From positions 1 to 32,850 of the forward strand of contig JALZUI010000025.1 in NCBI GenBank assembly GCA_023301545.1: a stretch of DNA of 32,850 bases, given 5' to 3'. Positions 10,672 through 31,687 of this stretch are shown in pieces. Every line of letters starts with the position of its first letter. The first letter of the stretch is position 1. This DNA comes from Akkermansiaceae bacterium. Lineage in GTDB: Bacteria; Verrucomicrobiota; Verrucomicrobiia; Verrucomicrobiales; Akkermansiaceae. The notes beneath the pieces are model-generated. The model searched no databases, was not told the origin of the DNA, and saw only the letters and a list, made by a program, of their open reading frames with translations. Position numbers and translations under genes: made by a program.

Positions 10672-10691
10672 AATAATAAGAGAGTTAGAGT

Positions 10692-12320
10692 TTAAAGAGA
10701 AGCTGATTCATCAAAGGAGACCAAGCGTTGGAGAACAATCATGACTCGATCGAGGAAGAACCCAATGATTCCCACTACAAAACAGGCCACGATAATATTG
10801 GCAAAGGATTGAGAAGATCCGTTCTGATATTCGTCCCAAACAAACTTCCCTAAACCATCAGAGGAAGAAAGGGCTTCAGCCGCAATCAATACCATCCAGC
10901 CTACTCCTAAAGAGATTCGCAATCCTGCAAACACAAGAGGAAGAGAAGAAGGGATAATGATTTTAAAGAGACGCGACCAGAAACCAAGACGGAGAACCTT
11001 TGCGACATTGAGATGATCTGGGTCGATGGACGAGACACCTAAGGCAGTATTCACCAAGGCAGGCCAGAGGGCACAAACCGCCACCGTACAAGCAGAGAAG
11101 ATCATCGCTGGGTTTGTCTGGAAATAACTTAAGGGGTTCGCTTGGTCATTTAAGAACAGGAAAAGTGGGTGCTTCTCTGGATCAGGGAAGAAGGCTCCAA
11201 TAATGATTTGGAAAATCAGGAGCCAAACCACAGGAGAGACCGGACGGAAGATCGAAATGATTGGGGTTAAACAAGCCATTACAATCCTATTCAATCCACA
11301 CATGATCCCCAGCGGAATTGCAACCAGACAAGCGAGGCTGAAGCCGATAATCACGGTAATAAGCGAACGATACGTTTGCCACACGATAGAAGCGGATCGA
11401 GGGTACTGCTGTCCTTTCGTTTTTTCCGCTTTCTCGGTATTCGACACCAGTGACTTAGCTTGCTTATAGGCTTCGCCTCCGTCTGTGGTAGTATTGAGTT
11501 GAGTCGACGCATCCGCAGCCTTCGCAAGAAGCGTATCCCCTTTCACCTCGCGGTTTCCGGAGGTAAGGTAATCGATTCTTTTTTTGGAGTGTTGGATTTC
11601 ATCAGCCAGCTTATTTGCCGCCAACTGAGCAGCTTTCACTTCTTTGGGAGGATTAGATCGAATGAGATCTATCTTTGTTTTGATTAATTTGAGCTCTTCT
11701 TTTTCGCTCTCACTCTTTATCCCATTTTCTTTAATGAGAGTGACCAGCTGTTGTGGCTCAGCCGTCTTGTTGGCCACCTTTTGAGCTAGAGCTTCCTCAG
11801 CACTTTTTCGCTCTTTTTTCTGTGAAAAGGAGAGTGCTTTCAGTTCGTCATATTCTGCTTTAATAGGCGCGATTTCAGACTCCATCTTCTCTTTCGCTTG
11901 TGCGGCAATCGACTGTGAATCGGCCTCTAATGCGGCATATTCACCTTCTTGCTTCTGTATCAAGGCTTCGATCTTCTCAACCTCTGCACCACGGTCTTCG
12001 CCTGTAGTCATGAAGGCTTGTTCCTTCTCACTTTCCTTTTCATGGAAGCGGTAACTATCCTTCCACGCATCCCATACTCTAGTCGGGGTTGGCACCTCTC
12101 CTGATTTGGTCTTATGATTCGGCCCTAAAACAGTCCAAGCGGCAAGGCAAGCGAAGACAAAGACGATCGGGAGCAGCATATAGCGGCTGATATCTCGAAT
12201 CTGTTTTTGTGGCTCTTCTTTGAAAAGGAGTCGGACGGGAGGATCCAGTACTTTAAAGCCACTGACATCAATGACCTTTAGTATACTATATTTGATTTTA
12301 TCTTTTGTAGGATTAGCCAT
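10692..12320 (-). CDS. nrtB: Nitrate ABC transporter permease, NrtB-like, with large periplasmic coiled-coil insertion
   Basis: Inner-membrane permease, 542 residues, nearly twice the usual ~280-300. Residues about 47-65 form the first membrane helix and are followed by the normal [10 protein letters not shown]. Residues ~95-303 are then a charged, Glu/Lys/Ala-rich stretch predicted to be coiled coil. The permease domain resumes with [15 protein letters not shown] and contains the family EAA-type loop ([16 protein letters not shown]). By topology the insertion should be periplasmic. I chose the ATG at 12320 ([11 protein letters not shown]); the in-frame TTG at 12368 lies inside the -24 promoter element. 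nrtC follows by 20 bases. Confidence 0.85.
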
Positions 12321-12351
12321 AGAGCAAAACGTTGTATCTGAAACCCGATAC

Positions 12352-12368
12352 AGCTCACCCCATGCCAA
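12352..12368 (-). promoter_or_regulatory. Sigma54-like -24/-12 element upstream of nrtB
   Basis: The minus strand reads TTGGCATGGGGTGAGCT, with GG and GC separated by exactly 10 bases. The predicted transcript start is near 12341, giving a 21-base leader before nrtB. It would give nrtBCD a second promoter inside the cluster. The 9-mer GGGGTGAGC overlapping this element also occurs 20 bases upstream (12373-12381). No test of function is possible here. Confidence 0.5.
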
Positions 12369-12388
12369 CCCCGCTCACCCCAAAAATT

Positions 12389-12877
12389 TTAATCGCATGT
12401 CGCAGATGAATAAAATTCATGCTCGCCAAGTGAAAGGGTTCCTCCGCTAGTAATTCGACATCGCAACCCCCCTTTTCCTTTAAGATATTCATGCACGCCA
12501 GGGGCACACGCTTCATCCATCCAATAGCATGGAGCGGCCTCCTCTGATCCGGTAAACTTCAGATTCCCCACAGAAAATTCCTTCCCAATCAACGCATTCA
12601 AATCAAGCCCTTCGGTAATAACGTTTCTGCGAAAGGCCGAACTACATAAATCGGGTAAGGAGAAGTGCTCTTTGACCTCATTGTAAACCTGTAGGTCAAA
12701 GAATGTAATTTGCCCCTTAAAATCTTCCTTAAAGTCATAATACCGATCACCGAGAATTCCTCTTCCAGCGACCAATTCAGCAGACTCCGCAGATTCTATA
12801 TGATAATTGGCCGCGCCTTTTCCATGCCTCCCTTTGTAGCTATGGCCCTTTGATAAATATAATTTTTTTACTATCAT
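12389..12877 (-). CDS. MOSC domain protein
   Basis: A 162-residue protein of the MOSC (molybdenum cofactor sulfurase C-terminal) family. Visible family features are GRGILGDRYYDF near residue 40, CSSAFRRNVITEGLDLNALI (family R-N-x-x-x-x-G pattern), a conserved Cys in the segment AAPCYWMDEA, and GLRCRITSGGTLSLG near the end. Stand-alone MOSC proteins are linked to cofactor carrying, sulfur transfer or maturation of Mo enzymes. Here it is the last Moco gene, with its ATG overlapping the moaA stop as ATGA, so it is probably needed for or with nitrate reductase maturation. The exact reaction is unknown. Confidence 0.88.
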   Translation of the reverse strand: MIVKKLYLSKGHSYKGRHGKGAANYHIESAESAELVAGRGILGDRYYDFKEDFKGQITFFDLQVYNEVKEHFSLPDLCSSAFRRNVITEGLDLNALIGKEFSVGNLKFTGSEEAAPCYWMDEACAPGVHEYLKGKGGLRCRITSGGTLSLGEHEFYSSATCD

Positions 12878-13869
12878 CCTCCTATGTAACTCATTTCTAT
12901 TTTTTTCTGGCTCACGATTCCCCGTAATTCTGAATAACGATCCGTGCGATTACCCCAAAAACCTCTCAGCATAGCGCTCACCTCCGTAACTGAGCCACTT
13001 TCACGAAGTACGGACTTAAGATCCGTCCCGGTAGACGCAAACAGGCACCCATATATCTTCCCCTCAGCCGACAACCGGAGCCGTGAACAATCACTACAAA
13101 ATGGTTGGGTTACAGAGCGAATAATCCCTACCTTCCCCCCGCCATCACTATAGGAGAAATTCTCCGCCACCGCAGCGACTTGTCGCGGGTCTGGGTTGAC
13201 CCCATACTCTGCATCTAAGAGTTCTAAAATTTGATCGGCAGGAAACACCTCTTCGACACTCCACTGATTCGACTCTCCTACGTCCATGAATTCGATAAAG
13301 CGAAGGAGCAGATGGTGCTGTCTAGCGAATGCGGCTAGCGGAAGAATCTCAGCGCTGTTCATGCTCTTTTGAATGACCGCATTTACCTTCACAGGAAGCC
13401 CTGCTTGTTGTGCCGCAAAGATGCCCGAGAGCACTCGATCGACATCTGCTCCGACCCCATTCATTGCCGCAAAGGTTTCAGGATTTATGGCATCTAAACT
13501 GACAGTTACTCGGGACAATCCAGCGTTCTTTAACCGCTCCGCATAATGCCCTAGTAAGATTCCGTTTGAGGTCAGCGCAATATCTTCGATCCCAGGAATA
13601 GCAGAAAGCATCCGCACAAGCTCATCGATATTTTTTCGTAAAAGAGGTTCGCCACCAGTCAGGCGAATCTTAGTCACTCCTAAACCAGCAGCAGCTTTCG
13701 CAACCGTTGTGATCTCTTCAAAGGAGAGTAACTCCTTCCGATCCAAAAAAGGGTAATCTGCGCCAAACTTTTCCGCCGGCATACAATACCCGCATCTGAA
13801 ATTACAGCGATCTGTTACCGAAATACGGAGATCTCCTAAAGCTCTGCCTCGTTGGTCTGTAATAGCCAT
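12874..13869 (-). CDS. moaA: GTP 3',8-cyclase MoaA (molybdenum cofactor biosynthesis)
   Basis: Radical SAM enzyme that converts GTP to 3',8-cyclo-GTP, the first step of molybdopterin synthesis, in the cytoplasm. The N-terminal cluster motif is CNFRCGYC (C22, C26, C29), with RISVTDRC before it and LTGGEPLLR after it. The C-terminal cluster is C258, C261 and C275 (FCSDCSRLRL ... YGCLF). The protein ends YIGG, keeping the family's C-terminal double glycine needed for catalysis. Length 331 is normal. It starts one base after the moaE stop and overlaps the MOSC gene by four bases. Confidence 0.96.
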   Translation of the reverse strand: MAITDQRGRALGDLRISVTDRCNFRCGYCMPAEKFGADYPFLDRKELLSFEEITTVAKAAAGLGVTKIRLTGGEPLLRKNIDELVRMLSAIPGIEDIALTSNGILLGHYAERLKNAGLSRVTVSLDAINPETFAAMNGVGADVDRVLSGIFAAQQAGLPVKVNAVIQKSMNSAEILPLAAFARQHHLLLRFIEFMDVGESNQWSVEEVFPADQILELLDAEYGVNPDPRQVAAVAENFSYSDGGGKVGIIRSVTQPFCSDCSRLRLSAEGKIYGCLFASTGTDLKSVLRESGSVTEVSAMLRGFWGNRTDRYSELRGIVSQKKIEMSYIGG

Positions 13870-13870
13870 C

Positions 13871-14302
13871 TTATGATTTTATACAGTTCGGGCACGGGGC
13901 GGTATAAACAGACTCTCCATCAGCATAGGTTTCAAACTTCCAGATCGGCACCTCAGTTTTGATTTCGTCTATCAAAAACTGGCACGCTTGAAATGCTTCT
14001 GCACGATGCGAAGAGGCGATCGCTATAAAAACCGCGCACTCTCCCACCACGCACTCTCCTATACGGTGAACGGCATAGGCCGCGGTGATCGGAAACTTAT
14101 CTAGAGCCTTCTGCACGAGTTCGTCTCCTGTCGACTGCGCCAAAGCGGGATGGTGCTCGTATCGTAAAGAGGTAACAGACTTTCCGTTATGATGGTTTCT
14201 CACAATCCCTTCAAAGACAACATAGGCCCCACAAGTGTCATCAACCACTTGCTCTCTTATTTTCTCCGTCTGAATGACGGTGGAAGTAATGTGAAAACTC
14301 AT
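13871..14302 (-). CDS. moaE: Molybdopterin synthase catalytic subunit MoaE
   Basis: Large subunit of molybdopterin synthase, which converts cyclic pyranopterin monophosphate to molybdopterin using sulfur carried by MoaD. The 143-residue protein shows GAYVVFEGIVRNHHNGKSV near the start, IGECVVGECAVFIAIASSHR in the centre and EIKTEVPIWKFETYADG near the end, where the catalytic Lys residues lie. It is 4 bases after the MobA-MoaD fusion gene, so its partner sulfur carrier is made just before it. Family length is normal. Confidence 0.95.
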   Translation of the reverse strand: MSFHITSTVIQTEKIREQVVDDTCGAYVVFEGIVRNHHNGKSVTSLRYEHHPALAQSTGDELVQKALDKFPITAAYAVHRIGECVVGECAVFIAIASSHRAEAFQACQFLIDEIKTEVPIWKFETYADGESVYTAPCPNCIKS

Positions 14303-14306
14303 AAAA

Positions 14307-15122
14307 TTATCCGCCCATAAAGGGGGGCATGAAAGCGATTATATCATCTGGGCTAAAGACATGGTTCCAACTCGTAAAGGCATTATTCACAGCAGGCTTC
14401 ATCTCAGGTAATTTGGTCGATAGATGATGACGCATACGACATTCTTCCCACAGTCCAGCTAACGTCACCGCCGTCGAAGTCACGTGCTCTGAGGAACAAC
14501 CCGCCTCCTCTCTTAGCTTGGCATAATACTCCACTGTCACTTGCTTTTCTGAGACCTCATTTCCTTGCTGTGCCTTCCATTCGTTAAGGTCTTCAGGGTA
14601 GTTTAGGTTGGTCAATAGATTCATCCTGTCAGGAGCAAGCTCCACCCGCGAAAGATTCTCTAAGAAGGAGCGTAAGCAACGCGAATTGCTTTCAAACACC
14701 TTATCCAGAGCCACTTTGGCAGAGGGTGAATATAAGGAGCAATGACCTTCAGGTACTGCGTCATAAGGATTCAGATAACATACAATATCTTTATTCTGCT
14801 CACGGCTTTCTACTAAGCGTAACAAGTCCTCCTTACCTACATTCGGTAAGTCGCAAGCCAAGACGAGCCAATCACAGTCTGGAGAGTGAGCGAATGCAGT
14901 AGCCATCCCTCCGAGAGGCCCCTGACTAGGCGCTAGATCAGGTAAATCGTATGCATTAGACTTCTCTGCTCCATACGGGAGCGAAACATACACTTCATCG
15001 CACACTTCCGAAAGAAGCCTTAAAGAGCGGTCTTTAAAAGTCTCGCCTTCATGTGTCAGCAATTGCTTAGGCTGCCCCATCCGCTGACTGAGACCACCTG
15101 TAAGTAATAACCCCTTGATCAT
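14307..15122 (-). CDS. Fused molybdenum cofactor guanylyltransferase (MobA-like) and MoaD sulfur-carrier domain
   Basis: 271 residues in two parts. Residues 1 to ~188 are a MobA/MocA-type nucleotidyltransferase: LLLTGGLSQRMGQPKQLL (5-22), QGPLGGM (67-73), and metal-binding LACDLPN (88-94); it would attach GMP or CMP to the cofactor. Residues ~190-271 are a MoaD ubiquitin-like domain: VTVEYYAKLREEAG at the start and IIAFMPPFMGG at the end, with the C-terminal Gly-Gly that must be adenylated and thiocarboxylated to feed MoaE. The reading frame is continuous with no internal start needed. The fusion joins an early and a late step. Whether the substrate is GTP or CTP cannot be told. It lies between moaC and moaE. 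Confidence 0.88.
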   Translation of the reverse strand: MIKGLLLTGGLSQRMGQPKQLLTHEGETFKDRSLRLLSEVCDEVYVSLPYGAEKSNAYDLPDLAPSQGPLGGMATAFAHSPDCDWLVLACDLPNVGKEDLLRLVESREQNKDIVCYLNPYDAVPEGHCSLYSPSAKVALDKVFESNSRCLRSFLENLSRVELAPDRMNLLTNLNYPEDLNEWKAQQGNEVSEKQVTVEYYAKLREEAGCSSEHVTSTAVTLAGLWEECRMRHHLSTKLPEMKPAVNNAFTSWNHVFSPDDIIAFMPPFMGG

Positions 15123-15133
15123 TCGATTCCGGA

Positions 15134-15610
15134 TTAAGAGGTTTGAAAGTCGGATTTACCTCCTGTTTTCTTCTCTAACTTTAGGTCGGTAATAGTAATG
15201 CCAGGATTCTGTGATTTACACATATCATAGAGCGTCAACGCGGCGGTTGAAGCTCCTTGTATGGCTTCCATTTCCACTCCCGTCTTCCCTTCGATTTTAC
15301 AGGTGCACTCTATCTTAAGAGACTCCGCATCGTTAGGCAGCACTTTAATAGAAGCGTGGCTGAGAGAGAGAGGGTGGCACATTGGGATCAACTCCGAGGT
15401 CTTTTTAGTCCCCATAATTCCCGCAATAGTAGCGGTTTGAATCACGGACCCTTTTTTGGTAACCAAATCCCCATCAACCATTTGAGCAATCAGGTCAGAC
15501 CCTAGAATAACCTTACAGCTCGCCACTGCGACTCGTTCAGAAACACTTTTGCCGCCGATATCTACCATTCTCGGCCTTCCCGCTTCATCTATGTGTGTGA
15601 AATTAGACAT
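15134..15610 (-). CDS. moaC: Cyclic pyranopterin monophosphate synthase MoaC
   Basis: Second-step enzyme of molybdopterin synthesis, converting 3',8-cyclo-GTP to cPMP. The 158-residue protein has the family landmarks FTHIDEAGRPRMVDIGGK at the start, AGIMGTKKTSELIPMCHPL in the middle (active-site K and H region), and GVEMEAIQGASTAALTLYDM towards the end. Length and order are standard. It follows moeA by 33 bases and precedes the mobA-moaD fusion by 11. Confidence 0.96.
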   Translation of the reverse strand: MSNFTHIDEAGRPRMVDIGGKSVSERVAVASCKVILGSDLIAQMVDGDLVTKKGSVIQTATIAGIMGTKKTSELIPMCHPLSLSHASIKVLPNDAESLKIECTCKIEGKTGVEMEAIQGASTAALTLYDMCKSQNPGITITDLKLEKKTGGKSDFQTS

Positions 15611-15643
15611 TATCCCTTGTTGTATACGAATACCTTAGCATTT

Positions 15644-16816
15644 TTAAAGCCAAGATGCAAATTCGACGAGATTATTGCTTTTATGATCAGGAGGAATCGT
15701 CACATACCCTTGACTCCCAACCATTGAAACGAAATCCCCTGAATTACTTGTCGCTAAAAGCTGAACAGTTCCCCCATCTTCTAATCGAGCGGGAATATGT
15801 AATACAAAATGATGAGCAGGTATGTCTCCTAGGACTTGTACCATTCTCTTACTCAGGGAATGATCCCCCATCATTTTACGCAGGGCGGGCTGCACATAAT
15901 GGTGAAAACAGATCAAGGCTGAGAGAGCGTTCCCGGGGAGAGAAAAAATAGGAACGGGACTGTTCCAAAATGCGAATGGCTTCCCTGGGCGTTGCGTCAC
16001 TCCATGAAATACCGGGTCTCCCGCATAGGACGAAATCACTTCTCGCAAGTAATCCGTCGTCCCTCTTGAAATGGCTCCGCAGGTAATAATCACATCGACT
16101 TCGCTAAGGTGGGTGTCGAAAAAGCATTGAAAGCTCTCTCTACTGTCAGCGACGTGTTCATGAACTAAGGAGCTCACCCCCAGTTTGTCTAACGCTGTAG
16201 AAATCGCCGTCATATGTGATTGCCTGATTTGGTGCGGTAATGGGCGAGCTTCTGGAGCAACTACTTCCGCCCCTGTTGTCAACAAGGCCACCCTAGGAGC
16301 TCTATATACAGATGTCGATGCGACTCCCAATGACGCTAGCAGGAGCATAACGCTAGAGTCTACCAGAGTCCCGATTGGTAAAACCTCTTGTCCCGCCAGA
16401 GTATCGTCCCCCTTTCGGTGTATAAACTGTCCCCTCTTTATCTTTTCAGGAGCCTCCAAAATCACATATTCCCCACTAAAGGTTAACTCCTCTACGGGCA
16501 CGACTGTATCACAACCCACAGGTAGGACGCCTCCCGTATTGATGCGAAATGCGGTATCCACATCTTCAATTTGAACCTCTGGCTGACCCGCTTCTACCGT
16601 TTTACTGAGTCGATACTTACTTTGCCCTTCTCTGTAGGATAACGCCACTCCATCCATGGTTACCCGATCATACGGGGGGTAATCTCGATCAGCTAATATT
16701 GCAGCAGATAAAACACGACCACATAATGAAGCACGTGGAATCTCCTCGGTCGGCAAGACCGAGAGGCGATCATGTATTAGAGTACATGCATCAGTAGGTG
16801 AAATAAGGTCGTTCAT
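15644..16816 (-). CDS. moeA: Molybdopterin molybdenumtransferase MoeA
   Basis: Inserts molybdate into adenylylated molybdopterin. 390 residues, near the usual ~400. Family pieces are PPYDRVTMDGVALS (substrate loop with Asp), INTGGVLPVGCDTVV, LLTTGAEVV (conserved Glu), ITCGAISRGTTDYLREV (the family's GGxSxGxxD region with altered spacing residues) and FSLPGNALSALICF, where the usual LPGNP has Ala for the second Pro. These variations are modest and the enzyme is probably active. A weak Shine-Dalgarno AGGAG lies 11 bases before the ATG. A terminator-like hairpin separates it from nrtA upstream, so Moco genes may be expressed at a lower level than nrtA. Confidence 0.93.
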   Translation of the reverse strand: MNDLISPTDACTLIHDRLSVLPTEEIPRASLCGRVLSAAILADRDYPPYDRVTMDGVALSYREGQSKYRLSKTVEAGQPEVQIEDVDTAFRINTGGVLPVGCDTVVPVEELTFSGEYVILEAPEKIKRGQFIHRKGDDTLAGQEVLPIGTLVDSSVMLLLASLGVASTSVYRAPRVALLTTGAEVVAPEARPLPHQIRQSHMTAISTALDKLGVSSLVHEHVADSRESFQCFFDTHLSEVDVIITCGAISRGTTDYLREVISSYAGDPVFHGVTQRPGKPFAFWNSPVPIFSLPGNALSALICFHHYVQPALRKMMGDHSLSKRMVQVLGDIPAHHFVLHIPARLEDGGTVQLLATSNSGDFVSMVGSQGYVTIPPDHKSNNLVEFASWL

Positions 16817-16838
16817 AAAAATATGCTCTCCTGTAAAT

Positions 16839-16869
16839 AAAAAGTAGCTGAATTTCTCCAGCTACTTTT
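16839..16869 (-). terminator. Hairpin terminator between nrtA and moeA
   Basis: Perfect 11-base arms AAAAGTAGCTG (16840-16850) and CAGCTACTTTT (16859-16869) around an 8-base loop. On the minus strand the stem ends in a run of T (TTTTTATTTA), the form of a Rho-independent terminator. It begins about 30 bases after the nrtA stop and ends about 23 bases before moeA. Being nearly symmetric it could act on both strands. Confidence 0.75.
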
Positions 16870-16899
16870 ACTTTGCTATGGATTATTACAAATTTTTTC

Positions 16900-18249
16900 T
16901 TACTCTGCAGTATCTTTATTCCCTATTGCGTGGGCATTTAGGTAAGCAATTGGCTTCTTCCCATCATAGGTAACTCCATCAATGAAGTCTGAAGTAGGAG
17001 CCTTGTACCCATCATACTCAGGAGCTGGGAAGTCTGAAGCCTCAAGCACTCCTTCCTCAACAAGCATGTCCGCAGCCTTACGGTAGACGTCTGGTAAGTA
17101 AACACTCTTAGCCGTTTCGTGGTACCAAGACGCTGGTTTAGCCTCTGTGATTTGCCCCCAGCGACGCATTTGCGTCAAGAACCAGACTCCATCCGAAAAG
17201 TGTGGATACGTTGCATGGTACTTGAAGAAGACGTTAAAATCAAGCATCTCACGCTTGTCGGTCTGTTGGAAGTAGAAGTGCCCACTCATCGAGTTATTGA
17301 TAATGTCAAAGTCTGCTCCAACGTAGTTAGGTTGTGAGAGAATACGGCACGCTTCAGCTCTGTTTACTAACTTGCCATCTTCGGTCTCATCTAGCCATTT
17401 ACCAGCCTTGATCAGTGCTTTTGTCAGCGCGATGAGGGTATTTGGATTTTCATCAGCCCAGGCCTTTGTGATTCCAAAAACCTTTTCCGGATTATTTTTC
17501 CAGATATCATAGTTCGTGATCACAGGAACTCCGATCCCTTTAGATACTGCTTGTTGGTTCCATGGCTCTCCTACACAATACGCCACATTCTTTCCTGACT
17601 CCAATGTCGAAGGCATTTGAGGTGGAGGAGTAGTCGATAATTCAATATCTCCGTCAGTGAACCCCTTCAGGTCAGTTGAAGTATACATCCCTGGATTAAT
17701 TCCAGCAGCTGCCAGCCAGTATCTCATCTCGTAGTTATGAGTCGAGACCGGGAAGACCATTCCCATCGGAAGCTTTTTGCCGTCTTCTTTAGCCTCATCT
17801 ACAATCGGCTTCAGAGATGCTGCAGAAATTGGATGCGGTGGAGTATCAGACTGAAGTGACTCGTCATTCTCCTGCATTTGCTCCCAAATCGCGTTTGAAA
17901 CCGTAATCCCGTTACCATTCAAGTCTAAGGTATAAGGAGTCACAATGTGAGCTTTGGTACCAAAGCCGATCGTCGCCGCAATTGGCTGACCCGATAGCAT
18001 GTGCGCTCCATCTAACTCGCCATTGATGACGTTATCTAATAATTGCTTCCAGTTTGGTTGCGCAATCACTTTTACCTGAAGACCTTCCTCCTCGAAATAG
18101 CCTTTCTCTTTAGCAATAACAAGAGGAGCGCAGTCTGTTAGCTTAATAAAGCCTAGCTTTAGCTCATCTTTTTCGACTTCTAAGGTTTCTGCCTGTACTA
18201 GGCTAGTTGTGGCAAAAAGCGCCAACGTTGATTTTAATAGTAATTTCAT
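16900..18249 (-). CDS. nrtA: Nitrate ABC transporter substrate-binding protein, NrtA-like
   Basis: Periplasmic nitrate/nitrite-binding protein of the NrtA/CmpA family, 449 residues. A signal peptide spans about residues 1-20 ([17 protein letters not shown]). The mature domain starts [20 protein letters not shown], with [10 protein letters not shown], then [19 protein letters not shown], where the nitrate-contacting His lies, and CVGEPWN. The Tat motif and lipobox seen in some NrtA are not obvious, so it may be freely periplasmic. It follows the porin by 35 bases. The second NrtA-like protein at 25466-26467 lacks the signal peptide. Confidence 0.92.
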
Positions 18250-18284
18250 TTTTATATTTGGGGGGTAATTGAATTAAGAAAAAA

Positions 18285-19583
18285 TTAGAACTTATAGTCT
18301 AACTGAACAGAAGCCTGTGCGATATCAGCACTGGCTCTGCCAAAGCTACTGTCATTATCGTTGTTGCCAAAGTAGTAGGCAAACTTAGCTAAAACGGTGA
18401 GGTTCTCATTAATAGGCTTAATAAGCACTGCATCCGCTTCCCATCCGTAGGTTTCACTAAAGTCTTCATCCATGAAGTAGTGTAATGCACCTACCGCTTT
18501 GATTCCACCAGGGAGACCTGCTTTCACTGCAGATACATAGAAGTCTGCGATTCCATCCCAATCTACTAAACCTAATTGACTACCTAAGAAGGCATCAGCA
18601 AACCCATTGAATTTGTGGGCGGTTTGTAAAGGAGTTACGAAATCTGCCCCTTGAAAGACCAATCCCGCAGACCCTGCGATCCCGGCAACCTTCTGGGAGT
18701 ATTTAACGTGTCCATAATAGTCGGTGTAGCTATCTTTATCCCCGGCTTCAGTCTGCACCGCTCCTTCTAAGTAAAGAGATCCAGCCCCCGCTTTAAGAGT
18801 CGCGAAAGAACCATAGGTATTAGAACTAGCGAAGTCCCCTTGGTCTGAGAAATCGAACAGGTAAGCATAAGCACCTAGTTTATGTGAACCTAAATTGAAT
18901 TTGGCATTAATCAGATGCGCATCTCCTTCTAATTCACCTAGCTGACCGTTAGCATCACTACCAAAAATTCGATTAACCTGTGAAACGTAACCGTAGTAGA
19001 GATCTACAACGTCGTTTTTGTATCCAACGGTGACCCCATCATAGGTTTGTTCGTTATTACGCCATGCCACTCCACCTACGAATTGCTGGTCGTCTAAGTT
19101 AATGCGTTGGCGTCCGACCTTAGCGCTAAATCCGTAACCTTCATACGCAAGGTAAGCTTGGTTAAGCTCTTCCGTCTCCGGATCAGCAATGACTGTATGA
19201 CCCGGTTCGAATGGGTCAGCAACTGCAGTGCGAGTAGGAGTACTGCGGAAATCATCTACTAAGGCGTAGGAAAACTCCCCTTCTGCAAAAAGACTGAACC
19301 CACCGTACTTTTTCGTCTTCAACCCGGGTCTTAATCTGGTTGTTAAGGCATTAGAAGATTGAAGACCTTGCTGATCACGAAACTCGTAACGGAGCCTTGC
19401 GTCCAACGTAGGGCGTACCGCCCAGTCATTCACGCCATCAAGGAAATTGACCCCTTGTATAGCCGCTTGTGGGAATGGTAAAATAGATAGACTTGATTCA
19501 TCAGTAGGGATGAAACTTTCGCCGGCATGTGAACTTGCTGTAAATGCCGCGACCGCAGATAGAGTAATGATTTTATGTTGCAT
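18285..19583 (-). CDS. Outer-membrane porin (alginate-export/OprP-like barrel), probable nitrate porin
   Basis: A 432-residue outer-membrane barrel with signal peptide (about residues 1-20, ending ASSHA). Mature sequence shows RPTLDARLRYEFRDQQGL, FSLFAEGEFSYALVDDF, QAYLAYEGYGFSAKVGRQRI and a C-terminal strand ADIAQASVQLDYKF ending in Phe, as expected for a Bam-inserted barrel. VGRQRINLDDQQFVGGVAWR is typical of alginate-export-type porins in Verrucomicrobia and Planctomycetes. Position directly before nrtA under a sigma54-like element suggests a nitrate entry role; the substrate is not shown by the sequence itself. Confidence 0.85.
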   Translation of the reverse strand: MQHKIITLSAVAAFTASSHAGESFIPTDESSLSILPFPQAAIQGVNFLDGVNDWAVRPTLDARLRYEFRDQQGLQSSNALTTRLRPGLKTKKYGGFSLFAEGEFSYALVDDFRSTPTRTAVADPFEPGHTVIADPETEELNQAYLAYEGYGFSAKVGRQRINLDDQQFVGGVAWRNNEQTYDGVTVGYKNDVVDLYYGYVSQVNRIFGSDANGQLGELEGDAHLINAKFNLGSHKLGAYAYLFDFSDQGDFASSNTYGSFATLKAGAGSLYLEGAVQTEAGDKDSYTDYYGHVKYSQKVAGIAGSAGLVFQGADFVTPLQTAHKFNGFADAFLGSQLGLVDWDGIADFYVSAVKAGLPGGIKAVGALHYFMDEDFSETYGWEADAVLIKPINENLTVLAKFAYYFGNNDNDSSFGRASADIAQASVQLDYKF

Positions 19584-19598
19584 GACGTATCATCCTAC

Positions 19599-19615
19599 AG
19601 CTTAAGGCGTGCCAA
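19599..19615 (-). promoter_or_regulatory. Sigma54-like -24/-12 element for porin-nrtA
   Basis: The minus strand reads TTGGCACGCCTTAAGCT. The -24 part TTGGCACG is a full match to the sigma54 consensus and the GC of the -12 part follows after exactly 10 bases. The predicted transcript start is near 19588, only 5 bases before the ATG. This is the best of the five matches in the window. Confidence 0.6.
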
Positions 19616-19638
19616 TCTGGAATCTCTAATAAAATTAA

Positions 19639-19659
19639 AATTCATCAAAAACATGAATT
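19639..19659. promoter_or_regulatory. Inverted repeat upstream of the porin, candidate operator
   Basis: AATTCAT and ATGAATT arms around CAAAAAC, perfect over 7 bases each. Its core CATCAAAAACAT differs by one base from CATGAAAAACAT in the palindrome upstream of nirA. The centre lies about 61 bases upstream of the predicted porin transcript start. The binding protein is unknown; the nearby LysR regulator is a candidate. Confidence 0.4.
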
Positions 19660-19785
19660 AAATTTATTTAAACCATTCAAAGCCTAGTGAGATATGAGCG
19701 AAATCTCTTAATACGGCTACTCATTCAAATAGAGAGCCCCTTTCGAAAACCTCTTCCCTATAAGACCTAGATTTACTTAGGTGAC

Positions 19786-19820
19786 TGAAATTGCGCTCAA
19801 GTCAACTCCTTGAGATTTCA
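19786..19820. promoter_or_regulatory. Imperfect inverted repeat in the divergent region
   Basis: TGAAAT, four unpaired bases, then CTCAAG, a 7-base spacer, CTTGAG and ATTTCA, so 12 pairs with one bulge. It lies roughly 85-120 bases upstream of the predicted nirA transcript start, the distance where sigma54 enhancer proteins bind. Function is only a suggestion. Confidence 0.3.
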
Positions 19821-19842
19821 CCACCCCTTAACTATCACATCT

Positions 19843-19867
19843 AGTGCATGAAAAACATTCATGCACT
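19843..19867. promoter_or_regulatory. Perfect 25-base palindrome upstream of nirA, candidate operator
   Basis: Arms AGTGCATGAA (19843-19852) and TTCATGCACT (19858-19867) match perfectly over 10 bases around AAACA. Its centre is about 50 bases upstream of the predicted nirA transcript start and 11 bases from the -24 box. There is no T-run, so it is not a terminator. It is likely a binding site for a dimeric regulator, such as the LysR protein encoded at 26551. Confidence 0.6.
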
Positions 19868-19877
19868 CCGTCAGCCC

Positions 19878-19894
19878 TTGGCATTCGTCATGCT
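19878..19894 (+). promoter_or_regulatory. Sigma54-like -24/-12 element for nirA
   Basis: TTGGCATTCGTCATGCT keeps TTGGCA and places GC exactly 10 bases after GG. The predicted transcript start is about 19905, one base before the nirA ATG, so the message would be nearly leaderless. That short distance weakens the case, though the same spacing pattern recurs at four other starts of the module. Confidence 0.45.
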
Positions 19895-19905
19895 ATTTTG
19901 TATGT

Positions 19906-21630
19906 ATGGAAGATAGTTTCAACGACACACAGAAAGGTTACCTTCAAGGCTTACTTGATGGAATAAACTCTCCTGGTTTTCTGGGTAAAACGGAGGATGG
20001 GAAATTCACTGGCGACGCCGCTGCTGCAGGCCCAGAGACCGTCTACGGAACAGAGATCGAAGACCTTTGTAAGGAAGAGACCATCAAACATGAATTAAAT
20101 GGCCTAGATTGTTGGGATAGCATGCTACAAGCAGATGCTGACAAGGAATTTGCTAAAGGCGGCGATGTCTTCCGCTTCAAGTTTTATGGAATGTTTCATG
20201 TGAGCCCTGCACAGGATTCTTACATGTGCCGGATGCGCATTGCGGGCGGAGAACTAAATACGCTCCAATTAAGAGGGATTGCAGAAATGGCAGATGATTG
20301 GGGTGGTGGATATTGTGATGTCACTACGCGTAACAACTTCCAGATTCGCGAAATTATGCCTGGAAACGTCACGAATGTCTTCCAAAAGCTCACGGATATA
20401 GGCCTCACGTCGAAGGGAGCGGGGGCAGACAACATTCGTAATATCACAGCCACTCCGACCACTGGGTTCGATACTCACGAATTTATTGATGTCATGCCTT
20501 ACGCTCGTAGTATGCATCATCATATATTGAACAACCGGGACCTCTTCGGCTTACCTCGTAAGTTCAATATCTCCTTTGACTCCGGTGGCGCTGTCTCAGT
20601 TTGCACAGATACGAATGATATTGGTTTCTATGCATGTAAGGTTGGAGAAAATTTTGATGGCATTGAACCTGGCGTATATTTCCGCGTTCAACTCTGTGGT
20701 ATCACAGGGCATAAGCAGTTTGCGAGTGATTGCGGCGTCTTATTGAAGCCTTCGGAGATGATTCCGTTTGCGGCCGCCTTGATTCGAGTTTTCGTCGAAA
20801 ACGGTGACCGCACAAGCCGTAAGAAAGCCCGCCTTAAGTATTTAGTCGATAAGTGGGGTGTCGAAAAGATGCTTACTGAAACAGAGAAAAAGCTAAATAC
20901 ACCCCTCTTTTACTACCCTGTAGAAAGCTGTATCATCTCTCAGCCTAAGGTGAAACACGGACACATTGGAGTGCATAAGCAGAGCGATGGCGACAATTAC
21001 GTCGGGATTGTAGTGCCAGTCGGTAGAATAGTCACGAAAGACATGCACACGCTCTCCGATCTCGTGGACAAATATGCCAAGGGGAAAGTCCGCCTCACGG
21101 TTTGGCAAAACTTGATTGTTCCTCATGTTTCAGACGCACAACTTGCGCCCTTCTTAGCCGAACTTAAAAAGGCTGGATTTCAATACGAACAAACTGCTGT
21201 TTCTGGTGGCTTAATCGCTTGTACCGGAAGCACAGGTTGTAAGTTCGCGCAATCAAACACGAAGGGGCAAGCGATAGAATTAGGCCGTATTCTAGATAGA
21301 AAAATTTCCTTAGACCAACCAGTCAATATTCACCTCACAGGATGCCCTCACTCTTGTGCTCAGCACTACATCGGAGACATTGGGATGCAAGGGGTAAAAG
21401 TAAAAAATGAAGCGGGAGAATCAACCGACGGGTACAATATTGTCTTAGGTGGCGGAACAGATGACGACCAGTTCATGGCTCAAGAAGTATTTAAGCAAAT
21501 CCCGTTTACAGATGTTCCCCCCTTAGTCGAAAGACTCTTAAACGCATACAAAGAGAACAGAGATGCGGAGGAAAGCTTTGCCCACTTTACCCGTAGACAT
21601 ACTCCGGAACAACTAAAGGACATGGTTTAA
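19906..21630 (+). CDS. nirA: Ferredoxin-dependent assimilatory nitrite reductase, NirA-like
   Basis: Six-electron reduction of nitrite to ammonium in the cytoplasm. 574 residues with two nitrite/sulfite reductase half-domains. The siroheme/[4Fe-4S] cysteines are C439 and C445 (ACTGSTGCKFAQ) and C480 and C484 (GCPHSCAQHYIGDIG). DVTTRNNFQIREI marks the first ferrodoxin-like repeat. I start at 19906 (MEDSFNDTQKGYLQG); the earlier in-frame ATG at 19861 lies inside the palindrome and upstream of the promoter element. No NADPH-binding domain is present, so electrons should come from ferredoxin or a similar donor. The iron-sulfur/anchor gene follows after 40 bases. Confidence 0.93.
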   Translation: MEDSFNDTQKGYLQGLLDGINSPGFLGKTEDGKFTGDAAAAGPETVYGTEIEDLCKEETIKHELNGLDCWDSMLQADADKEFAKGGDVFRFKFYGMFHVSPAQDSYMCRMRIAGGELNTLQLRGIAEMADDWGGGYCDVTTRNNFQIREIMPGNVTNVFQKLTDIGLTSKGAGADNIRNITATPTTGFDTHEFIDVMPYARSMHHHILNNRDLFGLPRKFNISFDSGGAVSVCTDTNDIGFYACKVGENFDGIEPGVYFRVQLCGITGHKQFASDCGVLLKPSEMIPFAAALIRVFVENGDRTSRKKARLKYLVDKWGVEKMLTETEKKLNTPLFYYPVESCIISQPKVKHGHIGVHKQSDGDNYVGIVVPVGRIVTKDMHTLSDLVDKYAKGKVRLTVWQNLIVPHVSDAQLAPFLAELKKAGFQYEQTAVSGGLIACTGSTGCKFAQSNTKGQAIELGRILDRKISLDQPVNIHLTGCPHSCAQHYIGDIGMQGVKVKNEAGESTDGYNIVLGGGTDDDQFMAQEVFKQIPFTDVPPLVERLLNAYKENRDAEESFAHFTRRHTPEQLKDMV

Positions 21631-21670
21631 GCCCAGCGCCTCCTTTTCCTTCACCTACCCCTCCCCTCCG

Positions 21671-23173
21671 ATGCAAACAGAAACTCTAATCGACAGTTTA
21701 ATCAAAGATCAGAAGACTCTCTACAGCGCGGTGGACGAGATTGCAGACAAGATAGACTCAGGAACCCTGAGGACTGATCTCTATCAACACCTCATCCCCT
21801 TAGAAAAGCCTCTGAAGGGAGAGCAATATGCCTTCCAAGTAGAATTGGACAAATGCACATCTTGTAAGGCCTGTGTTGTTGCGTGTCACAGTCTGAATGG
21901 ACTAGAGGAAAAAGAAGCGTGGAGAGATGTCGGGTTAATCCTCGGAGGAGACGATGATCCAGGATGGCAACAAACAGTCACGAGCGCATGCCACCATTGT
22001 TTAGACCCTCAATGCATGCACGGATGCCCTGTAAAAGCCTATGAAAAGGATGAAACCACGGGCATTGTCCGACACTTAGATGATCAATGTATTGGTTGTG
22101 AATACTGCTCCCTAAAGTGCCCTTATGACGTCCCTAAATACTCTTCTCGATTAGGTATTGTAAGGAAGTGTGACATGTGTTCTCAGCGATTAGAAGTAGG
22201 AGAAGCTCCAGCATGCGTGCAAGCCTGCCCTAATGAAGCGATCAAAATAATCACCGTCAACACGTCTGAAATTCGTCCCGAATTAGAAAACAAGCGCGAG
22301 TTTATTAAAGGAGCACCCCTCCCTAACATTACTCTCCCCACTACTCAATACATCGGCAGAAAGGTTCCTGATACCGCAAAGCCTGTAGACCAAGAAAAAC
22401 TTTCCCTCGCCCCTGCGCACCTTCCGCTCGTCTTTATGCTGATGCTAACTCAAGCAGGGGGAGGAACCTTGCTCGCAGCGACTTTGACAAATCCTATTAC
22501 GCTAGGATTAATCGGAAGTTCCTTATTCTTTATCGGGCTCAGCTGCAGTATTTTACACTTAGGCCGTCCCTTAGGCGCTTGGAGATTTTTCCTCGGACTC
22601 AAGACCTCTTGGTTAAGTAGAGAGATTCTTGCCTTTTCACTCTTTGCTCCACTCGTGATGATCTTTGTGGGCATGCACCTCCTCCCTGACCAGTGGACGG
22701 CATTCATCCCCTCGGCAGTGGATTTCCCTCTCAGCGTAAGCCTCTGGGTCATTGGGCTGGCAGCGGTCTACACTAGCGTGATGATCTACCATGATACAAA
22801 ACGCGAAAACTGGCACTACAGATGGACCACCCCAGCCTTCTTTGGCACCGTATTCGCCTTTATCGGAATGGCTCTTGGTTCGTCCTTCCTGCTACTCTGT
22901 CTCATCCCATTGATCACAGACCTCCTCACTCTCCTTCCCGTGATGAGGAGTAAGAAATCATCTCCGTGGTCGCCGTCCTTACATCGAGCACGCCTCCTCT
23001 GGCACCCTCTCCGTAAAGTCACCCTATCCAGACTACTCTTAGGTCTAGGGGCGCCTCTTGTTGCCCTCTTATCTCCACCTCTCGCATTATGTCTTCTCAT
23101 TGGAGGAGAATTACTCTCACGCGCATTATACTTTAGGTCCGTTCACTCCCCTAAAATGACTGGAAATATTTAA
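21671..23173 (+). CDS. Fused four-cluster ferredoxin (DmsB-like) and DmsC-like membrane anchor
   Basis: 500 residues joining two subunits usually made separately. The N-terminal ~200 residues hold sixteen Cys in four sets: 62/65/68/72, 107/110/115/119, 140/143/146/150 and 167/170/182/186, enough for four [4Fe-4S] clusters as in DmsB. From ~245 onward there are about eight hydrophobic helices; SCSILHLGRPLGAWRFFLG (280s-300s) matches the DmsC anchor family, which oxidises quinol. No Tat signal is present, so the Fe-S domain should face the cytoplasm. Placed between nirA and nasA it is the likely electron donor to nitrate reductase, perhaps drawing from the quinone pool. The role is inferred; the fold assignment is strong. 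Confidence 0.85.
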   Translation: MQTETLIDSLIKDQKTLYSAVDEIADKIDSGTLRTDLYQHLIPLEKPLKGEQYAFQVELDKCTSCKACVVACHSLNGLEEKEAWRDVGLILGGDDDPGWQQTVTSACHHCLDPQCMHGCPVKAYEKDETTGIVRHLDDQCIGCEYCSLKCPYDVPKYSSRLGIVRKCDMCSQRLEVGEAPACVQACPNEAIKIITVNTSEIRPELENKREFIKGAPLPNITLPTTQYIGRKVPDTAKPVDQEKLSLAPAHLPLVFMLMLTQAGGGTLLAATLTNPITLGLIGSSLFFIGLSCSILHLGRPLGAWRFFLGLKTSWLSREILAFSLFAPLVMIFVGMHLLPDQWTAFIPSAVDFPLSVSLWVIGLAAVYTSVMIYHDTKRENWHYRWTTPAFFGTVFAFIGMALGSSFLLLCLIPLITDLLTLLPVMRSKKSSPWSPSLHRARLLWHPLRKVTLSRLLLGLGAPLVALLSPPLALCLLIGGELLSRALYFRSVHSPKMTGNI

Positions 23174-23184
23174 CTCCCTCCCCT

Positions 23185-25398
23185 ATGAGCCATCTCCCAA
23201 GAATCCCTAGCCTAAAAGACCCTCTAGCATTGGCCAAAGAAGAGGCCACTCTCTTCAAAAAAACAGGCCCTCTGACTGCAGAACTGGCACAACAAAGCGG
23301 TAGCTTAGGCAATCTCCCGGCCGCCCAAGGAGTGACCCAATCTACCACTCAATCGATCTGTGGTTTCTGTTCTACAGGATGTTCTCTTACCATGCATTTG
23401 GGAGAAGATGGGGCGCAAAACCTGACCCCAACCCCCCATTATCCTGTAAACTTAGGAATGGCCTGCCCTAAGGGATGGGAGGCGCTTGCCGTATTGGATG
23501 CTCCAAACCGAGCCAAAACCCCCCTTCTCCATGGAAAACCTATCGACTGGGCGACCGCCGCAGATACCTTTTGTGATCGGATCAAAGAAATCCAAAAGAA
23601 CCATGGGGATCATTCGGTCGCATTCCTTTCGACAGGGCAGATTCCATTCGAAGAAATGGCCTTCATCGGGAGCTTCTTTAAGTCCGGCATGGGAGGACTC
23701 CATTGTGACGGTAATACCAGACAATGTATGGCCACGTCAGTCGTAGCTTATAAACAATCATTTGGGTTTGATGCCCCTCCCTATACCTATGCAGACTTTG
23801 AGGAATCCGAACACCTTGTCTTCATTGGCGCAAACCCATGTATAGCCCACCCTATCATGTGGCAGCGGGTCTTACGGAATAAAAACTCCCCTCGTATATC
23901 CGTGATCGACCCACGTAATACGGAGACCGCACAGTGCGCTACTCACCATTACCCTCTGAAGCCTAAGTCAGACCAAGCCTTGTTTTATGGCATCGCTCAC
24001 TACCTCTTCACTAACAACTTATGCGATAATGAGTTTCTAAATAAGCATACCGAAAGGTGGGAAGAATACCGAACCTTTGTTTCAACATACGACTTGGAAA
24101 CAACTTCCGAGCTCTCAGGAATCTCTCCCGAGGACATCATCGATTTGGCAACTGCGATCGCTCAGAAAAAAACCTCTCTCTGGTGGACGATGGGCGTTAA
24201 TCAGTCCCACCAAGGAGTCCGCACTGCTCAAGCAATTATTAACCTCTCCTTGATGACTGGAAACATCGGAAAACCTGGAACAGGCGCAAACTCTATCACC
24301 GGTCAGTGTAATGCCATGGGGTCGAGACTCTTCTCCAATACAACCAATTTATTAGGTGGCCACGACTTCTCAAAGGGAGAACACCGAGAGAAAATTTCTC
24401 AGCACACAGGCATCCCTGCTGACCGCATTCCAACAGAATTAGGAAAGCCCTATCATGAAATCATCGAAGGTATTCTAAACGGTGAAATTAAAGCCCTCTG
24501 GGTCATCGCAACAAACCCCGCGCACAGCTGGATCAATCAAAACTGCTTTAAAGAAGTCAGGGAAAAGCTCGAGTTTTTGGTCGTCCAAGACATGTACGAG
24601 GATACCGAAACAGCCCAAGTCGCCGACTTAATTCTTCCCGCAGCTGGTTGGGGAGAAAAAACGGGGTGCTTCATTAACTCCGAACGTAGAATTTCAACTA
24701 TCCGCCCCGTAAAAACCGCGCCAGGGGTTGCGCTTGCTGACTTTAAAATCATTCAGCTCCTGAGCCATGCTTGGGGATGCGCAGACCTTTTTGCGAAATG
24801 GACTTCACCTGAAGCCGTCTTTCACATGCTCAGAGATTGCACCAAAGACACGCCCTGTGACATCACGGGGATTACTGGATACCAACACCTTGAAGATCAA
24901 GCCGGTATTCAATGGCCTTATCCAGAAGGCTCCACTAACGAAGAGCCAGAAAAAAGGCTCTTTACTGATTTCAAGTTTTTCACCCCTTCCCAAAAAGCGA
25001 TTTTTCATTTCTCGCCCCCGACGGAAGTAAAAGAGCTCCCTTGCTCGGAATTCCCATTCTACCTTAATACAGGAAGAGGCTCATCTAGCCAGTGGCATAC
25101 CCAAACCCGCACCCGTTCATCCAAGATCCTACAACAACTCTCCCCCTCTGATCCCTATATCGAAATAAACCCCCTCGATGCCAAAGAGCTAGAGATCGCT
25201 CATTTCCAGTGGGTCACCGTTTCCAGTAAAAGAGGCAAGATTAGAGTCCGTGCTTACCTTGCGCCATCCGTATCGCCAGGCCACCTCTTTCTACCAATGC
25301 ACGACCGTCTATCGAACCAGCTAACTCCTGCCGATTTCGATCCATTTTCGTTTCAACCCAGCTACAAAACAGGTGCGGTAGCCCTCAGTAAGGGGTGA
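23185..25398 (+). CDS. nasA: Assimilatory nitrate reductase catalytic subunit, NasA-type molybdoenzyme
   Basis: Bis-MGD molybdoenzyme reducing nitrate to nitrite in the cytoplasm. 737 residues. An N-terminal extension of ~50 residues precedes the [4Fe-4S] motif C59-x2-C62-x3-C66 ... C94 (ICGFCSTGC, ACPKG). The probable Mo-ligand cysteine is C181 in DGNTRQCMATSVVAYK, as in NasA/NarB. GVNQSHQGVRTAQAIINLSL and TGNIGKPGTGANSITGQCN are also typical, and the C-terminal molybdopterin-dinucleotide-binding domain ends near GAVALSKG. There is no Tat signal, in keeping with an assimilatory enzyme. It starts 11 bases after the Fe-S/anchor gene. No FAD or BFD domain is fused, so it needs an outside donor. 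Confidence 0.92.
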   Translation: MSHLPRIPSLKDPLALAKEEATLFKKTGPLTAELAQQSGSLGNLPAAQGVTQSTTQSICGFCSTGCSLTMHLGEDGAQNLTPTPHYPVNLGMACPKGWEALAVLDAPNRAKTPLLHGKPIDWATAADTFCDRIKEIQKNHGDHSVAFLSTGQIPFEEMAFIGSFFKSGMGGLHCDGNTRQCMATSVVAYKQSFGFDAPPYTYADFEESEHLVFIGANPCIAHPIMWQRVLRNKNSPRISVIDPRNTETAQCATHHYPLKPKSDQALFYGIAHYLFTNNLCDNEFLNKHTERWEEYRTFVSTYDLETTSELSGISPEDIIDLATAIAQKKTSLWWTMGVNQSHQGVRTAQAIINLSLMTGNIGKPGTGANSITGQCNAMGSRLFSNTTNLLGGHDFSKGEHREKISQHTGIPADRIPTELGKPYHEIIEGILNGEIKALWVIATNPAHSWINQNCFKEVREKLEFLVVQDMYEDTETAQVADLILPAAGWGEKTGCFINSERRISTIRPVKTAPGVALADFKIIQLLSHAWGCADLFAKWTSPEAVFHMLRDCTKDTPCDITGITGYQHLEDQAGIQWPYPEGSTNEEPEKRLFTDFKFFTPSQKAIFHFSPPTEVKELPCSEFPFYLNTGRGSSSQWHTQTRTRSSKILQQLSPSDPYIEINPLDAKELEIAHFQWVTVSSKRGKIRVRAYLAPSVSPGHLFLPMHDRLSNQLTPADFDPFSFQPSYKTGAVALSKG

Positions 25399-31125: not shown

Positions 31126-31148
31126 GTAACCTCTAACCTCATAGCTAA

Positions 31149-31178
31149 AGCCATGTTTCCGTAATAGGAAGCATGGCT
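31149..31178 (+). terminator. Hairpin after the TonB receptor gene
   Basis: Arms AGCCATGTTTCC and GGAAGCATGGCT pair over 12 positions with one G-U pair and a 6-base loop (GTAATA). The following T-run is weak (CATTTACT), so termination strength is uncertain. Confidence 0.55.
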
Positions 31179-31247
31179 CATTTACTCCTTCCACTTAAAA
31201 AAATTCATTGACCTCTGCTCTAATTTGAACGAATACTATAAATACTT

Positions 31248-31430
31248 ATGAAATCATTACTATTACCTCTCATCGCTGTTGCTTCAATCTTTTCCGTTTC
31301 ATGCTCATGTTACAAAGGTGCTTCTTGTACTAAGTCTTGCACGAAATCTTGCTCAAGCGAGTGTAGCAAATCATGTTGTTCAGACGGTAAATGTGCAGTT
31401 AAACCAGCGCCATTCGTATTCGCTAAGTAA
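31248..31430 (+). CDS. Small Cys-rich lipoprotein-like protein with regular CxxxC spacing
   Basis: 60 residues. An export signal runs to about residue 18 (LLLPLIAVASIFSVS), followed by C19, a possible though imperfect lipobox. Nine Cys in total; C27, C31, C35, C39 and C43 fall exactly every fourth residue (SCTKSCTKSCSSECSKSCC), which would line one face of a helix. The tail is KPAPFVFAK. Such an arrangement could bind thiophilic metal at the cell surface or periplasm, but no family is recognised. A promoter TTGACC (31208-31213), 18 bases, AATACT (31232-31237) precedes it. A similar small gene follows 33 bases later. Confidence 0.7.
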   Translation: MKSLLLPLIAVASIFSVSCSCYKGASCTKSCTKSCSSECSKSCCSDGKCAVKPAPFVFAK

Positions 31431-31463
31431 TTAGCTGAATAGAACAACAATCATCACAATATT

Positions 31464-31625
31464 ATGAAAACATTCAGCTTCATCGCTATTGTAGTAAGCG
31501 CATTTGCCGCTTCTCTTCTATCATCGTGCAGCGGATGTTGCTCAGGTACGACTCCTGCACCTGGCCTCCGTCCAGCTCCAGTGTTTGCTCCTCTTGCTGA
31601 TTCACCTGTTCATTACCAGAAGTAA
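31464..31625 (+). CDS. Small lipoprotein related to the upstream Cys-rich protein
   Basis: 53 residues: a hydrophobic signal (FIAIVVSAFAASLLSS) with a good lipobox LLSSC at residues 18-22 or so, then SGCCSG, a Pro-rich stretch and the ending RPAPVFAPLADSPVHYQK. The PAP-x-VFA ending matches the upstream gene (PAPFVFA), and the two lie in tandem, so they probably arose by duplication and form one operon. It is followed by a strong terminator. Function unknown; the mature chain is too short for an enzyme. Short length keeps the confidence moderate. Confidence 0.65.
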   Translation: MKTFSFIAIVVSAFAASLLSSCSGCCSGTTPAPGLRPAPVFAPLADSPVHYQK

Positions 31626-31655: not shown

Positions 31656-31687
31656 ATGAGAGGCTTTGGCCTCTCATTTTTGTTTTT
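31656..31687 (+). terminator. Rho-independent terminator after the two small lipoprotein genes
   Basis: Perfect 9-base arms ATGAGAGGC (31656-31664) and GCCTCTCAT (31669-31677), loop TTTG, followed by a T-rich run (TTTTTGTTTTT). Confidence 0.9.

Follow-up and report, generated by a model that had tools for sequence, protein, structure and literature searches.

Tiny lysine-ended lipoproteins encoded in tandem in the Akkermansiaceae: candidate tethers between outer membrane and wall

How members of the Verrucomicrobiota fix the outer membrane to the cell wall is largely an open question. Among described lipoproteins, Braun's lipoprotein (Lpp) is encoded by tandem lpp genes in Salmonella. Lpp is attached through its C-terminal lysine to meso-diaminopimelate, in a reaction carried out by L,D-transpeptidases, and the protein is restricted to a subset of Gammaproteobacteria (PMC8263019). 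HP0135 of Helicobacter pylori has a mature chain of 28 residues, a conserved C-terminal lysine and a role in outer-membrane stability; it was sought in sacculi, where linkage was not found, and H. pylori is without the transpeptidases that link Lpp (PMC11768039). Our literature search for proposed wall linkers of the Verrucomicrobiota itself returned one candidate, unrelated to the genes described here: WP_009060351 of Methylacidiphilum fumariolicum, an abundant lipoprotein in the peptidoglycan fraction that is proposed to link outer membrane and wall, and in which its authors highlight conserved C, Y and K (PMC10260701).

Here we describe two adjacent genes, A and B, from the window, by which we mean the whole stretch of 32,850 nucleotides of Akkermansiaceae DNA that was analyzed. 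Judging from sequence, A and B are best explained as members of an Akkermansiaceae-specific tandem array of tiny predicted outer-membrane lipoproteins, mostly with two or three genes per genome. The array family was previously unnamed and is held by neither Pfam nor NCBIfam. Comparison of A and B with databases gave no Pfam match, no NCBIfam match above cut-off, no PADLOC match and no credible PDB sequence match.

The locus and its distribution

The two open reading frames that the first-pass annotation had described, of 60 and 53 amino acids, were present where it had placed them (Table 1), both with predicted lipoprotein signals and Cys clusters. Gene A (31248-31430) translates as MKSLLLPLIAVASIFSVSCSCYKGASCTKSCTKSCSSECSKSCCSDGKCAVKPAPFVFAK and gene B (31464-31625) as MKTFSFIAIVVSAFAASLLSSCSGCCSGTTPAPGLRPAPVFAPLADSPVHYQK, with 33 nt between them. 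Each protein begins with a Lys-containing n-region, followed by a hydrophobic stretch and the Cys cluster, as is typical for Sec/SPII lipoproteins, and a strict filter for tiny lipobox-type ORFs across the whole window returned A and B and no others. The hairpin upstream of A is strong and terminator-like, yet it is without a good T-run. Downstream of B, the expected terminator was found, and a hairpin with a T-run follows 47 of 95 B genes, compared with 7 of 234 control positions. The promoter that had been proposed upstream of A was not supported: the single 9/12 match is no better than chance, as shuffled sequences yield 1.4 +/- 1.2 such matches. Matches of this 9/12 type were found upstream of 9 of 68 distinct A genes and at 15 of 340 random positions, and since this excess is modest, a conserved sigma-70 promoter was rejected. 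Shine-Dalgarno-like motifs were nearly missing (one of 68 A genes and none of the B genes).

Table 1. Positions of the features of the A-B locus in the window.
Feature	Position	Strand	Basis
Hairpin of 12 bp between TonB receptor gene and A	31149..31178	+	Fold, -20.9 kcal/mol for 31140-31200
Sigma-70-like promoter match TTGACC-18-AATACT, weak	31208..31237	+	10 nt 5' of A start codon
Gene A, 60-aa predicted lipoprotein, Lys-ended	31248..31430	+	ORF list, family alignment
A Cys19 (SVS-C), most likely lipidated	31302..31304	+	Aligned with SCC of homologues; direct reading
A Cys ladder C27-C43 (CTKS CTKS CSSE CSKS C)	31326..31376	+	Variable linker position; in no homologue examined
A C-terminal Lys60 codon, proposed peptidoglycan attachment residue	31425..31427	+	65/68 distinct A Lys-ended
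Gene B, 53-aa predicted lipoprotein, Lys-ended	31464..31625	+	ORF list, B profile
B Cys22 (predicted lipidated, LSS-C) and conserved Cys25-Cys26	31527..31541	+	Family alignment
B conserved LRPxPxF motif, here LRPAPVF	31566..31586	+	Family alignment
B C-terminal Tyr-x-Lys (YQK)	31614..31622	+	94/95 distinct B Lys-ended; Tyr at -3 in 60/95
Intrinsic terminator of the A-B unit	31656..31677	+ (palindromic, scored on both strands)	9 bp and T-run

Homologues in related genomes, on which the first-pass annotation had made its case depend, were abundant. A profile built from 30 B sequences matched 244 of the 260 Akkermansiaceae genomes searched (166 of 172 good-quality ones), on contigs that include Akkermansiaceae, Roseibacillus, Rubritalea and Persicirhabdus. 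Outside the family, no match to B was listed at E<=1e-4 among 387 genomes of the order Verrucomicrobiales. The A profile matched in 227 of the 260 family genomes, some of these being cross-matches to B or to a third gene.

At most loci, B is preceded on its own strand by an A-type gene (or the third gene) a short distance upstream, and arrays mostly consist of two or three tiny lipoprotein genes. Where the gap between A and B exceeded 200 nt, a lipoprotein-like ORF was flagged between them in 28 of 29 distinct pairs. This intervening ORF was mostly a third tiny lipoprotein (MK.AKIIAVLAALAGL.LTSC...PAP.P..V..GK), with a few spurious cases (L177 and probably L085). Rubritalea-type genomes carry a 29-30-aa SASCGCGCG lipopeptide in place of the third gene. 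Cys-rich lipopeptides of 26-30 aa (CGCGCG, CCGCM), with a mature part of ~5-8 residues and no terminal Lys, were seen between A and B at the Rubritalea-type loci L101, L136, L145 and L178, with a similar one at L092. In the presumed Akkermansia genomes (g3), B stood alone in the loci read, and A is apparently missing from its usual place. The B-type protein of Akkermansia has the C-terminal sequence ...MKSKK.

The flanks of the array vary. Some loci have asd and a polyprenyl synthase on one side and both a membrane protein and ComEC on the opposite side, and others have dnaK-groEL or leuC. The array keeps its order while these flanks change between genera, and we therefore interpret it as its own unit; together with the hairpin upstream and the terminator downstream, this bears out the earlier description of A and B as a separate tandem of tiny lipoproteins. 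A functional link to the upstream TonB receptor or to the downstream ComEC was rejected, as neither is conserved beside the array across genera.

Far from A and B, at positions 3-2615 of the window, the genes for a permease, an ATPase and a periplasmic binding protein look like those of a metal ABC transporter of znuABC type. They are interspersed with a small uncharacterized protein, and next to them, at 2637-3704, lies an outer-membrane protein whose long loop is acidic and His-rich. The stretch 8929-25398, by translations alone, reads as a nitrate/nitrite assimilation and molybdenum-cofactor block, with ABC transporters, moa genes, and ferredoxin-nitrite reductase-like and molybdopterin oxidoreductase-like ORFs.

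Conserved and variable parts of the array proteins

Conservation outside the signal was low, with a mean column identity of 31% for A and 41% for B. Three features were retained: the last residue, the Cys cluster and, in B, the LRPLPxF motif. The conserved Cys groups comprise two to three close residues in B; A has one to three, with the lipid Cys as the sole Cys in 24 of 68 A proteins. Proline makes up 18-26% of the mature part. For B, AlphaFold2 predicted a helix in the signal peptide only and coil for the remainder, with an overall confidence of 75.0 that was best near the Pro-rich motif.

The last residue was almost always Lys. This held for 94 of the 95 distinct B proteins, the exception (L248) having a tail that looks frameshifted, and for 65 of the 68 distinct A proteins. 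Across the arrays, the distinct tiny ORFs of lipobox type numbered 205, and 193 of them ended in Lys, compared with 10 of 139 neighboring proteins and none of six lipobox-like ORFs elsewhere, outside arrays. Both AAA and AAG were used for the terminal Lys, followed by any of the three stop codons, which we interpret as selection on the residue rather than on the DNA. In genus g10 (L096, L098, L108, L124, L135 and L211), A ends in PKA, PVR, PHV, PQA, PKV and APQ while the neighboring B keeps its Lys, and by this comparison the g10 A genes have lost the terminal Lys.

The first-pass annotation had also suggested that A and B share a PAP-x-VFA tail. The letters are present in both genes, but their positions are not equivalent. 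In A they form the C-terminal end, PAPFVFAK, where the family consensus is PTYxAPxK, and in B they belong to the LRPLPxF motif in the middle of the protein. Alignments put the two motifs at different positions, and we rejected the shared ending as homology and regard it as a coincidence of letters. From the alignments, the ending that is truly conserved and common to A and B is the terminal Lys.

A also has a Cys ladder, which had been likened in spacing to copper-storage helices. A contains Cys at positions 19, 21, 27, 31, 35, 39, 43, 44 and 49, and its lipobox, SVSC, is weak at -3. The regularity itself stood: five Cys fall at exact i+4 spacing across 17 residues, and runs of five or more were found in only 0.23% of shuffles of A's own mature composition. 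The likeness to copper storage did not, as the ladder is not conserved and no family match was found. The four repeat units differ in codons (TGTACTAAGTCT, TGCACGAAATCT, TGCTCAAGCGAG and TGTAGCAAATCA) through silent and conservative changes, which argues against fresh duplication by slippage. No ladder was found in any of the A homologues examined, including that of the same genus (L081 3325-3474, MKTVIQSLVIVAAIFVASCSCHSGSSASEPSSYVAPSAPSAPAFVMPTK), where only SCSC is present; at the ladder's position, other A proteins have a short linker rich in Pro, Ala and Ser. Two genomes of the same genus were available for comparison, G001 and G002. In G001 no match was obtained; there, ComEC is located at the end of a contig, and the region may simply be absent from that assembly. 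We conclude that the ladder is a repeat inserted, at the level of the species, into a linker that is tolerant of change. At L215:881-1144 (-), the linker of a lipoprotein in the A position is replaced by a long GSV/GSL repeat, and the protein keeps its Lys end, which parallels the ladder in the window.

AlphaFold2 gave no confident helix at the ladder, with a mean pLDDT of 54.8 for A and only short, low-confidence helices, and comparison of A with Pfam and PDB sequences gave no copper-storage match. The NCBIfam model nearest to the ladder, the Cys-Xaa-Xaa-Xaa repeat protein TIGR04117, a CxxxC radical-SAM target, was rejected because it scored 10 bits where the cut-off is 50, and no maturase of that type was seen beside the A and B genes. 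A class III lanthipeptide match in two of 30 B sequences (3.4e-5) was likewise rejected, at 24 bits against a cut-off of 27; it spans only the end of the signal and the Cys cluster.

Possible roles in the envelope

A conserved and probably structural role in the envelope, of whatever kind, is very likely for the array. The specific reading that we favor, to which we give about even weight, is that the array proteins are outer-membrane tethers like Braun's lipoprotein, joined to peptidoglycan through the terminal Lys. The first step, export by the Sec/SPII signal and lipidation at the first Cys of the cluster, is well supported by the predicted signals, and LspA is encoded in the window's genome. 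The mature chain, ~33 residues in B and ~20 in a typical A, would then run unfolded, Pro-rich and extended from the outer membrane towards the wall. There, in what is the core of the proposal, YkuD-type L,D-transpeptidases would join the invariant C-terminal Lys to meso-diaminopimelate of the peptidoglycan, as with Lpp, a protein that seems to be missing from this order. More speculatively, the one or two extra Cys beside the lipidated Cys might link neighboring chains by disulfides at the membrane, and in the window's species the ladder gained in the A linker would add disulfide zipping or metal or redox capacity.

The enzymes for such a bond appear to be available. The window's 1.78-Mb genome (G000) encodes eight YkuD domains and no Lpp, and YkuD was present in 58 of 58 relatives, in none of which the LPP family (PF04728) was found, although the E. 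coli positive control was detected. However, YkuD proteins were as frequent in related (sister) families without B, so YkuD does not track B. At one locus (L271:2565-3240, G003:C61), the gene for a 159-aa YkuD protein with SHGCVR separates asd from the array, and on the same strand it is followed directly by an A-type gene and a second Lys-ended lipoprotein. This YkuD protein and its Lys-ended neighbors are a candidate enzyme-substrate pair, and the window's genome has an apparent counterpart of the enzyme (L155). No L,D-transpeptidase gene was found beside the other array loci scanned (flanks mostly of 1-5 kb), and with a single enzyme-array case among several hundred genomes and several distinct neighborhoods, chance may explain the linkage.

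An extended chain covers ~0.3 nm per residue. Mature B would thus span ~10 nm, comparable with Lpp, and a typical A ~6 nm, which is short for the distance from outer membrane to wall and counts against a tether. Against it, too, are the g10 A proteins without terminal Lys and the extra lipopeptides of Rubritalea type (SCGCGCG), also without one. Seven OmpA-like domains in the window's genome could give non-covalent tethers instead. The chief caution, by analogy, is HP0135 of H. pylori, a Lys-ended small lipoprotein that was found not to be linked to the wall.

That example also underlies the main alternative, which we consider possible though doubtful: that these are small structural outer-membrane lipoproteins which stabilize the envelope but are not covalently bound to the wall. 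Their positive Lys end would make electrostatic contacts, either with peptidoglycan or LPS or with a different protein of the envelope, as may be the case for HP0135. HP0135 is similar in size, has the conserved C-terminal Lys and affects outer-membrane stability without being linked to the sacculus, and the internal Lys in B and the Lys loss in some A proteins would suit a looser requirement for charge. Yet Arg would then do equally well, and almost all the proteins end in Lys, with Arg at the end of a single distinct A or B sequence (PVR, L098); moreover, H. pylori is without linking enzymes whereas the window's genome has its YkuD domains. Binding of copper or zinc by the Cys groups and the ladder seems unlikely to be the role of the array. 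The clustered Cys are indeed conserved in both genes, and the ladder exceeds what composition shuffles give, its Cys being kept through silent codon changes; but the first Cys is the lipid anchor, so that in most cases one or two thiols stay free, the ladder was found in one genome only, the lipid Cys stands alone in about a third of A proteins (24/68), and a metal gene was not found as a conserved neighbor of the array.

Two further readings concern other kinds of small lipoprotein. An entericidin-like or toxin/antidote pair would resemble the array in size and in the tandem order of the ecnAB locus, but we regard it as very unlikely: 30 B and 21 A sequences had no Pfam match at E<=1, entericidin (PF08085) included, barring unrelated hits at chance level. 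Near-universal, vertical conservation in one family is also unlike a typical addiction pair, and the presumed Akkermansia genomes appear to have B without A at the usual place. Least probable of all is an assembly factor like LptM, a small lipoprotein that aids maturation of LptD or another barrel by means of its Cys. Six of 30 B sequences do match the NCBIfam LptM model (NF047847) weakly, with a best E of 0.0022, but the matched stretch is limited to the lipobox CG and the signal peptide before it (residues 1-24 against profile positions 1-21 of 31) and reaches at best 18.0 bits, under the curated cut-off of 27.7.

Returning to the covalent tether, a broader picture can be offered, as a tentative one: the Akkermansiaceae might have replaced Braun's lipoprotein by two or three unlike, extended, Lys-ended lipoproteins from one array, covalently fixed to the wall, cross-linked by disulfides near the membrane and differing in length, with the short member lengthened by the ladder in the window's species. 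If true, tethering of the Braun type would have an independent origin here, built on a stalk that is unfolded and rich in Pro, and the finding would be relevant to how gut Akkermansia keeps its envelope stable and releases vesicles. A near-universal Akkermansiaceae lipoprotein with a conserved C-terminal Lys allows a simple test of wall attachment by mass spectrometry, and the proposal supplies a hypothesis of function for a family outside Pfam and NCBIfam.

Comparison with known systems

Csp copper-storage proteins are four-helix bundles. They share with the window's A the CxxxC spacing of one stretch, but in A this stretch is short, rich in Ser, Thr and Lys, unconserved and without a confident predicted helix, and it has no Pfam or PDB sequence match to Csp. 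The Methylacidiphilum lipoprotein is from the same phylum and is likewise a proposed linker. It differs in its length of 139 aa, in an unrelated 53-aa C-terminal domain and in being encoded by a single gene with no array. We located lipoproteins of its type in five genomes, and the two that were read (L261 and L265) end in ...YTGKIFVVP, where Lys is not terminal; homology to A and B was rejected, as by inspection both are without the 53-aa domain.

HP0135 is closer in form, with a very small mature chain and a conserved C-terminal Lys as in A and B, although its species is without linking enzymes and the Akkermansiaceae have many YkuD proteins. Lpp (PF04728, Gammaproteobacteria) is also a tiny lipoprotein with a C-terminal Lys, which stands as Tyr-x-Lys in most B proteins, in a genome with YkuD L,D-transpeptidases. 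The two are not related in sequence, as A and B have no LPP match. The mature parts of A and B are Pro-rich and predicted to be extended, whereas Lpp is an alanine-zipper coiled coil, and the array proteins carry a Cys cluster after the lipid Cys and are encoded in tandem as two or three unlike members. By this comparison, the array proteins are not members of the Lpp family, but they may work like Lpp.
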